Positions 6,832-11,193 of a stretch of 64,000 nt of DNA are shown here, piece after piece; the first letter of the stretch is position 1; the number at the start of each line of letters is the position of its first letter. This stretch comes from Halanaerobium praevalens DSM 2228. Its GTDB lineage: Bacteria > Bacillota > Halanaerobiia > Halanaerobiales > Halanaerobiaceae. Under the pieces are notes generated by a model. That model was not told the origin of the DNA, did no database searches, and was given only the letters and a program-made list of their open reading frames with translations. A program made the position numbers and the translations under genes. The stretch covers positions 248,001 through 312,000 of the forward strand of contig NC_017455.1 in the NCBI RefSeq assembly GCF_000165465.1, written 5' to 3'.

Positions 6832-7827
6832 ATGGCAAAAGATAAAGTAAATATTTATGATGTGGCTGCAAAAGCTGAAGTCGGAATTGGTACAGTTTCT
6901 CGGGTTTTAAATAATAGTCCAAAGGTTAAGACTGAAACTAGAACTAAAGTTTTAGAGGTGATTAAAGAATTAAATTATCGGCCAAATAAGCTAGCACAAA
7001 ATTTGGCGAGTCAAAAAGCAAATGCAATAGGAATTATAGTGCCTACTTTTATAGACCACTTTTTTGTAGAGGTTTTAAAAGGAATTCAGGCTGCTTTAGA
7101 AGCTGAAAAAATTGATTTGATTTTGTATAAAATTGATAAAGATCAAGCAATGTTAGATAAAATTTTGGATATTGTTCACAGCAAAAAAGTAGATGGAATT
7201 GTAGCTGTTACTATGGATATTGGAGAAGAAGATTATCAGCAGCTATTAGCAGAAGAAATACCAATTGTTTTAGCAGATGAGAAAAATGATGATTTTCATT
7301 CTATTTATTTAAATGATTTAAAAGGAGCAGAAATGGCTATTCAATATTTGCTGGCTCAAGGTCATCAAAAAATTGCTTTTATAAATGGAGTTCAAACTAG
7401 CCAGCATGGAATTAGAAGGCTCAAAGGAGTTAAAAACATTTTAGCTAAAAATGACCTAGTCTTAGAACCAGAATTATTAAAATTTGGTGATTTCAAGACT
7501 GAATCAGGCTATAAGTTAATGCTTGAAATTTTAGATTTACCCCAAGCTAATTGGCCAACTGCTGTATTTGCAGCTTCTGATAATCAAGCAATTGGAATTT
7601 TAGAAGCTTTAAAAGAAAAAAACATTAAAGTTCCAGCTGAGATAGCTGTAGTTGGCTATGATAATATAGAGTTAGCAGAGTATTTGAAAATAACTACTGT
7701 ATGGCAGCCAATGTACAAATTAGGTTATCTGTCAATTGAGGTTTTATTAAAAGCAATTAGAGGTGAGCTTAATAATTTTTATCAGACAGAATTAGAATTA
7801 AAATTAATTAAAAGAGAAACTGCTTAA
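6832..7827 (+). CDS. LacI-family transcriptional regulator
   Basis: 331 residues. The N-terminal LacI helix-turn-helix is 'IYDVAAKAEVGIGTVSRVLN', followed by the hinge 'NYRPNKLAQNLASQKA' and a periplasmic-binding-protein-like effector domain (ANAIGIIVPTF; 'AASDNQAIGILEALKEK'). It lies inside the operon it probably controls, between the permeases and the glucosidase. Its likely targets are the two identical operators at 3781 and 3815, and possibly the related site at 21244-21257 before the GH65 gene. Repression lifted by an imported alpha-glucoside is the expected mode. CcpA itself is less likely from this location. Confidence 0.9.
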   Translation: MAKDKVNIYDVAAKAEVGIGTVSRVLNNSPKVKTETRTKVLEVIKELNYRPNKLAQNLASQKANAIGIIVPTFIDHFFVEVLKGIQAALEAEKIDLILYKIDKDQAMLDKILDIVHSKKVDGIVAVTMDIGEEDYQQLLAEEIPIVLADEKNDDFHSIYLNDLKGAEMAIQYLLAQGHQKIAFINGVQTSQHGIRRLKGVKNILAKNDLVLEPELLKFGDFKTESGYKLMLEILDLPQANWPTAVFAASDNQAIGILEALKEKNIKVPAEIAVVGYDNIELAEYLKITTVWQPMYKLGYLSIEVLLKAIRGELNNFYQTELELKLIKRETA

Positions 7828-7843
7828 AAAAAGGGAGGCCAAA

Positions 7844-9508
7844 ATGAATAAAAAGTGGTGGAAAGAAGCGGTAGTTTATCAAATTTATCCTCGGAGTTTT
7901 AATGATAGTAATCAAGATGGAATTGGTGATTTGAGAGGAATAATAGAAAAGATTGACTATTTAGATCAACTGGGGGTTGATGCTATTTGGTTAAATCCAG
8001 TTTATAAATCTCCAAACGATGATAATGGTTATGATATTAGTGATTATAAAGCTATAATGGATGAATTTGGAACAATGGAAGATTTAGAAGAATTAATGCA
8101 AGTTTTAGATGAGCATAATATTAAATTAATTATGGACTTAGTTTTAAATCATAGTTCAGATGAACATCATTGGTTTCAAAAGTCACGTCAAAGTAAAGAT
8201 AATCCTTATCGTGATTATTATATTTGGCGAGATGGTAAAAATGGTGGTCCACCTAATAATTGGCAGTCATTTTTTGGTGGTTCAGCCTGGAAATATGATC
8301 AACAGACTGAGCAATATTATCTCCACCTTTTTTCCGAAAAACAGCCTGATTTAAATTGGGAAAATCAAGAATTAAGAGCAAAAATTTATGAGATTATCAA
8401 CTGGTGGTTAGAAAAAGGAGTCGATGGTTTTAGACTAGATGTAATTAATTTAATTTCTAAAGACCAAGATTTTCCAGATGGCAAAAAAGAAGGACTTAGA
8501 GGTCATGAATATTTTGCTAATGGACCTCGAGTTCATGAATTCATCCAAGAAATGGCAGCTAAAACTTATAATAAATATCAAGCTATGACAGTTGGAGAAA
8601 CTCCCTTTGTAGATAAAGATGAAGCTCTAAATTTTGTCAAAGCAGAAAGAAAAGAATTTTCGATGATTATTCCTTTTGAACATTTAGAGTTTGATAGTAA
8701 AGAGGGTTGGGCTCAAATATCTGATTGGAAATTAAAAGAGCTGAAGGATTTAATGAGTGATTGGCAGTTCAAATTACAAGAAAATAATGGTTGGACAAGT
8801 CTTTATTTTTGTAATCATGATCAACCCCGGATTGTATCTCGCTATGGAGATGATGGTCAATATAGAAGAGAATCTGCTAAAATGTTAGGAACTATGCTTC
8901 ATACTTTAAGAGGAACTCCTTTTATTTATCAAGGAGAAGAAATCGGAATGACTAATATTAATTTTGACTCTTTGGCAGATTTTGATGATATTGAAACCAG
9001 AGCTAAAATTAGAGAAGAACAGGCAAAAGGGAACTTAAGCCAAGCTGAAATTTTAGAAATTGCAAATTATAGAACTAGGGACAATGCTCGAACTCCTATG
9101 CCCTGGAATGAAGAAGAATATGCTGGATTTTCAGAAACTAAACCTTGGTTAAAATTAAATAGTAATTATCCAGAGATTAATGTTGAAAAAGAACTGGCAG
9201 CTTCAGATTCGATTTTTAAATACTATCAAAAACTAATTGCTTTAAGAAAAAAATATCCAGTTTTTGCTTATGGGAAATATAAACTATTATTAGCAGAACA
9301 TCCAGATATTTATGCTTATCAACGTTTAGGCTCAAAAAATAATTTATTAGTACTTTTAAACTTTAGTTCTCAAGCAGCTGTTTTTGATTTAAGGACTGAA
9401 TTGTCTGTAAATCAGGCAGAATTATTGCTAACTAATTACCAGTCAGAAAATAAATTCAGTTTAAAAGGCAGTTTAAAACCATATGAAGCTAGAGTTTATC
9501 TTCTTTAA
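7844..9508 (+). CDS. malL: GH13 alpha-glucosidase, oligo-1,6-glucosidase type
   Basis: 554-residue cytoplasmic (no signal peptide) GH13 enzyme. The conserved regions are 'MDLVLNHSSDEH' (I), 'GFRLDVIN' (II, nucleophile D199), 'TVGETP' (III, acid/base E252) and 'NHDQPR' (IV, D326). D199 falls at the same number as in Bacillus oligo-1,6-glucosidase. Val directly after the nucleophile is the residue usually associated with alpha-1,6 rather than alpha-1,4 preference. It is the last gene of the operon, with a good SD (GGGAGG), and would split the imported oligosaccharide to glucose. Trehalose-6-phosphate hydrolase or sucrose-cleaving activity are alternatives. Confidence 0.88.
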   Translation: MNKKWWKEAVVYQIYPRSFNDSNQDGIGDLRGIIEKIDYLDQLGVDAIWLNPVYKSPNDDNGYDISDYKAIMDEFGTMEDLEELMQVLDEHNIKLIMDLVLNHSSDEHHWFQKSRQSKDNPYRDYYIWRDGKNGGPPNNWQSFFGGSAWKYDQQTEQYYLHLFSEKQPDLNWENQELRAKIYEIINWWLEKGVDGFRLDVINLISKDQDFPDGKKEGLRGHEYFANGPRVHEFIQEMAAKTYNKYQAMTVGETPFVDKDEALNFVKAERKEFSMIIPFEHLEFDSKEGWAQISDWKLKELKDLMSDWQFKLQENNGWTSLYFCNHDQPRIVSRYGDDGQYRRESAKMLGTMLHTLRGTPFIYQGEEIGMTNINFDSLADFDDIETRAKIREEQAKGNLSQAEILEIANYRTRDNARTPMPWNEEEYAGFSETKPWLKLNSNYPEINVEKELAASDSIFKYYQKLIALRKKYPVFAYGKYKLLLAEHPDIYAYQRLGSKNNLLVLLNFSSQAAVFDLRTELSVNQAELLLTNYQSENKFSLKGSLKPYEARVYLL

Positions 9509-9552
9509 ATTAAATACTTTTTTTAAAAGCTAAAATTTTGTTTTGAAAGCTA

Positions 9553-9586
9553 AAGCCTCCAAATTTATTTGGAGGCTTAATTTTTT
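9553..9586 (+). terminator. Rho-independent terminator of the alpha-glucoside operon
   Basis: AAGCCTCCAAAT (9553-9564) pairs with ATTTGGAGGCTT (9567-9578), followed by AATTTTTT. Confidence 0.9.
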
Positions 9587-9664
9587 AGTTAGTTTAAAAT
9601 TAATCAATTTGGTGCAGGAATCTTAAGACTGGTAGTCGAATTAGTTTAATACAGAGGTGGAAAT

Positions 9665-11053
9665 ATGAAGAAAAAATTATTAAAAAATGCTAAAATTGTT
9701 GATGATAAAGGTATTAGAAAATCTGATTTAATAATTGAAGGAGAAAAAATAGCGGGAGAAGAAAAAAGAGGTTTTTTTGCTGCTAAAGAAGATCAAGCTG
9801 GGCTTGAAGTTATAGATTTGGCTGGTAAATATCTTTTTCCAGGTTTAGTTGATGCAAATACTAATTGTTTTTTTAGTTCTGATTCTAATTCAGTTAAAGA
9901 AAATTTTTACCAAACTAGCTTAGAGGCAGCAGCTGGTGGAATTACTACAATTATTGATTATATAGATTTTCCTGAAAATAATAATTTTAGAGAAGCAGTT
10001 TTTAAACAAAAAGAAAAAGCAAAGGCTTCAATTGTTGATTATAGTTTTCATCAAATATTAACTGATTTTAACTCTAATATTTCTGAAAGTTTAGTTGATT
10101 TAAAAGATTTGGGTATAGCCAGCGTTAAATTATTTACTACTTATCAAAAAGAAGGTTATATGCTGAGTCAAAAACAAAGAAAAGAACTTTTTCAAAGTTT
10201 AAACGAAACAAAAATCTTAGCTCAAGTCCATGCAGAAGATAATGATTTGATTCAGGATTTAAAAGAAATTTATTCTAAAAGAAATCTAACTGAATTAAGA
10301 TTTACTACTGCAATTAGGCCAGGTATTTCTGAGGCTTTAGCAATTAAAAAACTGGGGAATGAAGCCTTAGAAGCTGATATTCCTTTATACATTGTTCATT
10401 TGTCAGCTGCTGAAAGTTTAGAAGCAGTTAGAAATTTAAGAGCTAAAAAAGCTCAAATTTACATAGAAACTAATCCTCATTATTTGATGCTTGATGATTC
10501 TTATTTAAATAGCAGTCAAGCTCTACTTTATTTAATGATTCCCCCTTTAAAAACACGCTATAATAATCAACTTTTATGGCAGGGAGTTAGTCAAAATGAA
10601 TTTCAAGTTTTAGCAAGTAATCACTTTAATTTTAAAGCAGAAAAAATAGCTGATTCAGGGTTTAATTTTGAAAATTTAATTGGAATTCCCGGGACAGAAA
10701 CTATTTTATCTCTTTTATATAGTTCTGGAGTTAGAAATAATAGAATAACTATTCGAGAATTGATTGAAATGCTAGCTGTTAATCCAGCTAAAATTTTTGG
10801 TCTTTATCCAGAAAAGGGATCTTTAGAAATTGGTACTGATGCAGATTTAACTGTTTTTGATCCTAATTTAGAAAAAAGATTAAAAGCAGCTAACTTATAT
10901 TCTACTTCCAAAAAAAGTCCTTACCATGATTTTACAGTTAAAGGCTGTCCAATTATGACTTTTAGAAGAGGTAAATTAATTTTTGAGCAAAAGCTAAAAG
11001 CAGCTAAAGGAAGTGGGAAATTTATTTTTGCTCATAGTTCAAGTCTTTTTTGA
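9665..11053 (+). CDS. Dihydropyrimidinase/hydantoinase-fold protein lacking metal ligands
   Basis: 462 residues with the overall pattern of cyclic amidohydrolases (dihydropyrimidinase, hydantoinase, allantoinase): N-terminal 'LLKNAKIVDDKG', 'KYLFPGLVDA', K155 in 'ASVKLFTTY' (the carbamylated Lys position), H189 in 'QVHAED', H245 in 'YIVHLS', and C-terminal 'NPAKIFGLYPEKGSLEIG'. The metal-binding HxH after strand 1 is replaced by Asn (N65, N67 in DANTN), and the catalytic Asp of the usual TDH motif is N319 (ASNH). Three of six canonical ligands are changed, so a normal dinuclear hydrolase is unlikely. It stands alone between terminators, has a good SD (GAGGTGG), and the frame is intact, which argues for a maintained non-catalytic or altered function. 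Confidence 0.8.
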   Translation: MKKKLLKNAKIVDDKGIRKSDLIIEGEKIAGEEKRGFFAAKEDQAGLEVIDLAGKYLFPGLVDANTNCFFSSDSNSVKENFYQTSLEAAAGGITTIIDYIDFPENNNFREAVFKQKEKAKASIVDYSFHQILTDFNSNISESLVDLKDLGIASVKLFTTYQKEGYMLSQKQRKELFQSLNETKILAQVHAEDNDLIQDLKEIYSKRNLTELRFTTAIRPGISEALAIKKLGNEALEADIPLYIVHLSAAESLEAVRNLRAKKAQIYIETNPHYLMLDDSYLNSSQALLYLMIPPLKTRYNNQLLWQGVSQNEFQVLASNHFNFKAEKIADSGFNFENLIGIPGTETILSLLYSSGVRNNRITIRELIEMLAVNPAKIFGLYPEKGSLEIGTDADLTVFDPNLEKRLKAANLYSTSKKSPYHDFTVKGCPIMTFRRGKLIFEQKLKAAKGSGKFIFAHSSSLF

Positions 11054-11193
11054 TCTAAATAGTTAATTTATAATATTCAGTTCAATTCTAGTTGAAAGCA
11101 GGAAAGATTACATTTTTAGAGAAATTATTTATATAGCAATAATTTTAAAATTCTGTTTTTTTTGATTTCTAAAAATAATTAAGGAGTGAAAAA

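Follow-up and report, generated by a model that had tools for sequence, protein, structure and literature searches.

The open reading frame at positions 9665-11053 of the window, the stretch of 64,000 nucleotides of the salt-lake bacterium Halanaerobium praevalens DSM 2228 analyzed here, is most likely a real pseudoenzyme, explained by the orphaning of a hydantoinase through loss of its pathway and not by a conserved asparagine site. The case presents the birth of a pseudoenzyme with a clear genomic context, given that pathway, cofactor and transporter are gone; it occurs twice in one genus, and two close relatives in which the gene has been deleted (G006 and G008) act as controls. That the urate pathway, the Mo/W-cofactor genes and the neighboring tupABC genes have been lost goes beyond what the original prediction contained.

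The reading frame and its family

The features that define the gene are the following:
9553..9578, + strand: terminator-like hairpin, 3' of the amylase gene and 5' of the frame
9653..9660, + strand: ribosome-binding site AGAGGTGG, strong and intact, read directly from the sequence
9665..11053, + strand: putative hyuA-derived frame of 462 aa, candidate orphaned and catalytically dead hydantoinase homologue (from the frame itself, family models, PDB matches and orthologue alignment)

The frame runs uninterrupted from the ATG at 9665 to the stop at 11053, as had been stated before, and the disruptions of a pseudogene are absent: the gene is full length, with no internal stops and no frameshift or truncation. 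The upstream hairpin suggests that it is probably transcribed on its own.

The protein scores 69.9 bits with the Pfam model Amidohydro_1 (cut-off 25), which places it among the cyclic amidohydrolases. Its top NCBIfam model is TIGR02033, with 317.8 bits, under the cut-off of 393.25, whereas this model gives 427.3 bits, above the cut-off, for the intact orthologue in L049. The closest PDB matches are the bacterial D-hydantoinases 1nfg and 1k1d, and the nearest intact Halanaerobium orthologues, at the same locus, are 64-67% identical over the full length. An AlphaFold2 model built from six sequences (pLDDT 63, pTM 0.69) has active-site loops below 50 and informs on the fold only; with three sequences the pLDDT was 36 and the model was of no use. 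In a Foldseek search, this predicted structure matched the dihydropyrimidinase 3sfw and the D-hydantoinase 1k1d along its entire length (TM 0.75). Homology and fold of a cyclic amidohydrolase thus extend over the full length of the protein, and the proposal that the protein combines a dihydropyrimidinase fold with a disrupted active site is borne out by families, PDB matches and residue alignment; structure prediction, which had been suggested for the site itself, supports the whole fold but gives the active-site loops low confidence. A single-sequence scan of the genome contigs returned as its sole match a distant D-aminoacylase-like locus.

A family score of this kind easily yields the annotation "dihydropyrimidinase" for the frame, and metabolic models that adopt it would include a reaction that is very probably beyond H. 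praevalens.

The active site and its counterparts

In the D-hydantoinase family the alpha metal is held by H58, H60, a carboxylated lysine and D315, and the beta metal by the lysine, H183 and H239. The alignment with the Geobacillus D-hydantoinase 1k1d gives these equivalents:
9857..9859, + strand: AAT codon of N65 (H58 of 1k1d, alpha-metal ligand gone); CAT or CAC in the compared intact orthologues of the genus and family
9863..9865, + strand: AAT codon of N67 (H60 of 1k1d, alpha-metal ligand gone)
10127..10129, + strand: K155, kept (K150 of 1k1d, the lysine carboxylated in active enzymes)
10229..10231, + strand: H189, kept (H183 of 1k1d, beta-metal ligand)
10397..10399, + strand: H245, kept (H239 of 1k1d, beta-metal ligand)
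10619..10621, + strand: AAT codon of N319 (D315 of 1k1d, alpha-metal ligand and catalytic base gone); GAT or GAC in the compared intact orthologues of the genus and family

The three replacements and three retentions named in the original prediction are therefore confirmed; Y160 (Y155 of 1k1d) and R218 are also retained. With the equivalents of H58, H60 and D315 replaced, the alpha site is destroyed while the beta ligands are still there, and the six-residue set of an active D-hydantoinase or HyuA (HxH, Lys, His, His, Asp) is incomplete. That another HxH pair and Asp might fill the site had been named as the refuting case; a search for the H.H pattern over the whole protein gave no matches, which rules out an alternative pair, and the Asp position is N319. 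From the missing ligands, we infer that the protein would be unable to act as a normal hydantoinase.

Compared with the orthologues, the protein also carries L70F, R73D, G84T, H214T, T318S, C321F, K328I and P339I. Among the 67 columns that are invariant in 34 intact orthologues, 15 are altered in the protein; when each intact orthologue was left out in turn, 0-3 invariant columns were altered (77 to 80 columns, from a smaller set), so that chance is no explanation. An error of sequencing or assembly is conceivable in principle, since just three single-base differences would produce the asparagines, and yet its probability is negligible: the genome is that of the type strain, finished as one replicon of 2,309,262 bp, the three codons are among about 90 differences at which four close relatives agree, many of them at invariant positions, and the gene loss in the neighborhood is independent of the three codons.

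The survey covered 12 genomes of the genus, H. praevalens (G000) among them, and a wider set of 61 relatives. Orthologues of the hydantoinase are widespread in the class, and the HxH and TDHC motifs are present in every one of the 34 intact, full-length orthologues retrieved, a set that reaches from the genus into other families. Conservation of the asparagine triplet in Halanaerobiales, for which a survey had been proposed, did not hold: among the genomes surveyed the triplet is found in H. praevalens only. Asparagine as the replacing residue is nothing special, given that each codon is one base away from the ancestral one (CAT to AAT twice, GAT to AAT once), that D to N is one of the two commonest substitutions in this gene on the H. 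praevalens branch, and that the protein is rich in asparagine (6.4% versus 3.2-4.0%).

The only other degenerate orthologue, with 50-51% identity, was found in another genome of the genus (G011). Here the changes are, in 1k1d numbering, H58Q, H60Y, Y155A, H183Q, E185G and D315A, so that the positions of the triplet carry Q, Y and A; 16 of the 67 invariant columns are altered. Eight positions (65, 67, 70, 73, 84, 214, 319 and 328) are altered in both copies, against an expectation of 3.6 (P = 0.005). Using a site set defined beforehand as the loops and pocket residues (PMC7175128) plus the ligands, the changes in G011 are concentrated in the set (p = 2.5e-5); for H. praevalens alone, 6 of 17 site-set columns and 9 of 50 others are altered, which is not significant (p = 0.13). 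G011 also carries a second hydantoinase (L072 7738-9105), intact and with HxH, that adjoins a nucleobase-permease-like gene and PreA and probably serves as the genuine dihydropyrimidinase in the reductive breakdown of pyrimidines.

Since the alpha ligands went selectively and all three beta ligands (K155, H189 and H245) stayed, as did Y160 and R218, a mononuclear or metal-free enzyme with a new reaction is also conceivable, and CRMP-3, which likewise lacks the DHPase residues, has been reported as a deacetylase (PMC4051505). We regard such altered catalysis as quite improbable: the protein lacks the catalytic base equivalent to D315, its substrate loop is altered (L70F, R73D), and the G011 copy, in like circumstances, has lost the equivalents of H189 and Y160 too, so that the retention seen here may be incomplete erosion.

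The vertebrate CRMPs, with which the protein had been compared, are non-enzymatic relatives of dihydropyrimidinase. The kinship holds at the level of the fold, and the principle alone is shared: the nearest relatives of the protein are bacterial HyuA and hydantoinases, whereas the CRMPs are eukaryotic, of another lineage, and have lost the lysine. CRMP-4 keeps only two of the six metal-binding residues, with the lysine replaced by Leu (PMC4051505), four of six being lost; the protein described here has lost three of six and keeps K, H and H.

The urate pathway and the locus

The HyuA of C. difficile, acting in the reductive urate pathway, hydrolyzes ureidomethyl-hydantoin and 5-ureido-dihydrouracil (PMC12507026). 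A genome with an intact hydantoinase (G001) has, away from the tup locus, a purine/urate cluster that includes YgeY, a YgeW-like carbamoyltransferase, a xanthine permease, XdhABC, 8-oxoguanine deaminase, SsnA, a dihydroorotate-dehydrogenase-like protein and adenine deaminase. Among the 12 genus genomes, the distribution of the xanthine-dehydrogenase-type Mo hydroxylase domain (PF02738), YgeY and SsnA (over cut-off) coincides with that of an intact hyuA: all are found in the same 8 genomes and in no others. Among the 61 relatives, YgeY is over cut-off in 34 of the 36 genomes with an intact orthologue, and it is absent from both degenerate genomes. Given this co-occurrence and the activity of the C. 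difficile enzyme, the intact orthologue is very probably, from context and family, the HyuA of the reductive urate pathway. The protein of H. praevalens shares with HyuA (TIGR02033) the full-length homology, the locus and the predicted fold; it differs in that it lacks three of the six metal and catalytic residues as well as substrate-loop residues, and in that its genome lacks the pathway, given that PF02738, YgeY, SsnA (over cut-off) and a YgeW-like carbamoyltransferase are all absent from H. praevalens.

The loss reaches further. MoaA (over cut-off) and TupA are missing only from H. praevalens and G011 among the 12 genus genomes, and AFOR (PF01314) is missing from these two and from the incomplete G003; the other complete members keep all three, and Mo/W-cofactor metabolism has been lost twice in Halanaerobium, apparently independently. 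Intact relatives in the genus and family have the gene order amylase, tupA, tupB, tupC, hydantoinase, a gene for a Rex-family regulator on the other strand, and Lon; the amylase is missing in G012 and G013, and nagA follows Lon in most. The corresponding sites in the window are:
9509..9664, + strand: position, in relatives, of the tungstate ABC transporter genes tupABC between amylase and hyuA; gone here, with 156 bp remaining
11054..11193, + strand: position, in relatives, of the Rex-family regulator gene (opposite strand); gone here, with 140 bp remaining

Neither degenerate genome preserves the tupABC-hyuA synteny, the G011 locus being without tupABC, and in G006 and G008 the hydantoinase gene has been cleanly deleted between tupC and the Rex gene. 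In distant relatives the hydantoinase lies beside XdhA-type genes or beside genes for molybdate transport and cofactor synthesis.

Three minor observations concern this locus. The Rex-family regulator gene (L037 9628-10308 and relatives), absent at the site in the window, is convergent with hyuA and adjoins Lon, and a redox control of the tup-hyuA locus in the relatives is possible. A gene for an MFS-type transporter (cluster c15) lies between lacI and the amylase in G001, G003, G004, G005, G009 and G011 and is absent in the window (7827-7844). Between G011 and the window the amylase (L041) is 79% identical, against 69% for Lon, a difference that may reflect exchange of the maltose locus between lineages.

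Decay or retention

The gene in H. praevalens evolves about twice as fast as its neighbors, with a protein branch length of 0.47 versus 0.25 (0.75 versus 0.36 in G011). This speed, the loss of the pathway and the neighboring genes, and the deletion of the gene from G006 and G008 would all fit a passive relic, which lost its job recently, drifts neutrally and has escaped a stop or frameshift by chance. We consider this doubtful. In 1000 runs of a neutral simulation, each stopped at 15 changes of invariant positions, drift predicts about 10 stops (mean 9.8; P of none 0.002) and about 6 violations of the hydrophobic core (mean 5.9; P of one or fewer 0.022), and the gene shows 0 and 1; no run satisfied both observations, and the result for G011 was similar. 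The core comprised the 88 columns in which every intact orthologue has a hydrophobic residue; two of these are violated in G011. The same selective pattern in this second lineage and the ribosome-binding site, still intact, also speak against a relic. The fold is spared, and the changes fall on loops and catalytic residues. The original prediction had spoken of a pattern and not random decay; this stands insofar as the simulation separates the gene from random decay of the whole gene, but the asparagine triplet itself forms no conserved pattern.

An MG94 codon model, implemented in our own script, gave an omega of 0.076 for the background, 0.103 for H. praevalens (about 0.055-0.165 from the likelihood profile) and 0.090 for G011, and an omega of 1 was rejected by 25.7 and 21.7 lnL, respectively; with dS fixed near the values of the neighbors, omega was 0.12-0.15 and 0.26-0.33. 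The lacI control could not be used for G011, where dS was 0 and omega lay at its bound. As averages over the whole branch, these values and the core differ from what is expected of a neutrally evolving pseudogene (omega near 1, core violated); since the terminal branch, represented by a single H. praevalens strain, includes time before the loss, and synonymous changes are near saturation, a low omega alone is no proof of present selection.

We favor, as the probable reading, a folded orphaned pseudoenzyme whose active site was dismantled after the urate pathway was lost and which has been retained for a non-catalytic role. The ancestor would have been hyuA, the gene of an amidohydrolase that opens ureidomethyl-hydantoin and 5-ureido-dihydrouracil. 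Absence from the genome shows that the H. praevalens lineage has lost the urate pathway, moaA and the tungstate transporter next to hyuA; with these gone the constraint on catalysis would have been lifted, and the alpha-metal site, comprising two His and the Asp that is also the catalytic base, may then have been replaced along with nearby substrate-loop residues. Because an intact, foldable protein would still be maintained here, and likewise in the independently dismantled G011 copy, a residual or new non-catalytic role is suggested; by analogy with pseudo-dihydroorotase, an oligomeric binding or scaffold protein would be the most likely one. The faster evolution, the viability of G006 and G008 without the gene and the non-significant clustering in H. 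praevalens count against retention. In a stronger version, the loss of urate catabolism and Mo/W-cofactor metabolism was followed in each lineage, independently, by recruitment of the orphaned hydantoinase to one and the same selected non-catalytic role. This seems to us rather unlikely; if true, it would provide a natural replicate of the passage from metabolic enzyme to pseudoenzyme.

A literature search on bacterial dihydropyrimidinase pseudoenzymes and on the metal sites of CRMP2 returned nothing useful. The view that such proteins are hardly known in bacteria is nonetheless contradicted by the well characterized pseudo-dihydroorotase, which is inactive yet required for the activity of Pseudomonas ATCase (PMC7053772). 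The protein of H. praevalens resembles it as a bacterial relative of the cyclic amidohydrolases that has lost ligands and kept the fold; pseudo-dihydroorotase assembles with ATCase, and the gene described here is not beside pyrB, whose neighbor is an ordinary intact pyrC.

Two specific roles were considered and rejected. A YgeW-like carbamoyltransferase as a retained partner, as in the pseudo-dihydroorotase-ATCase assembly, is absent from H. praevalens, and G011 has only distant homologues. A stand-in for a missing dihydroorotase is ruled out, given that H. praevalens has a PyrC with the HTH and TDH motifs in its pyr operon. As a separate observation, two contigs classified as viral in IMG/VR (L068 and L069) carry adjacent genes for aspartate carbamoyltransferase and dihydroorotase, which may be auxiliary genes or host contamination.
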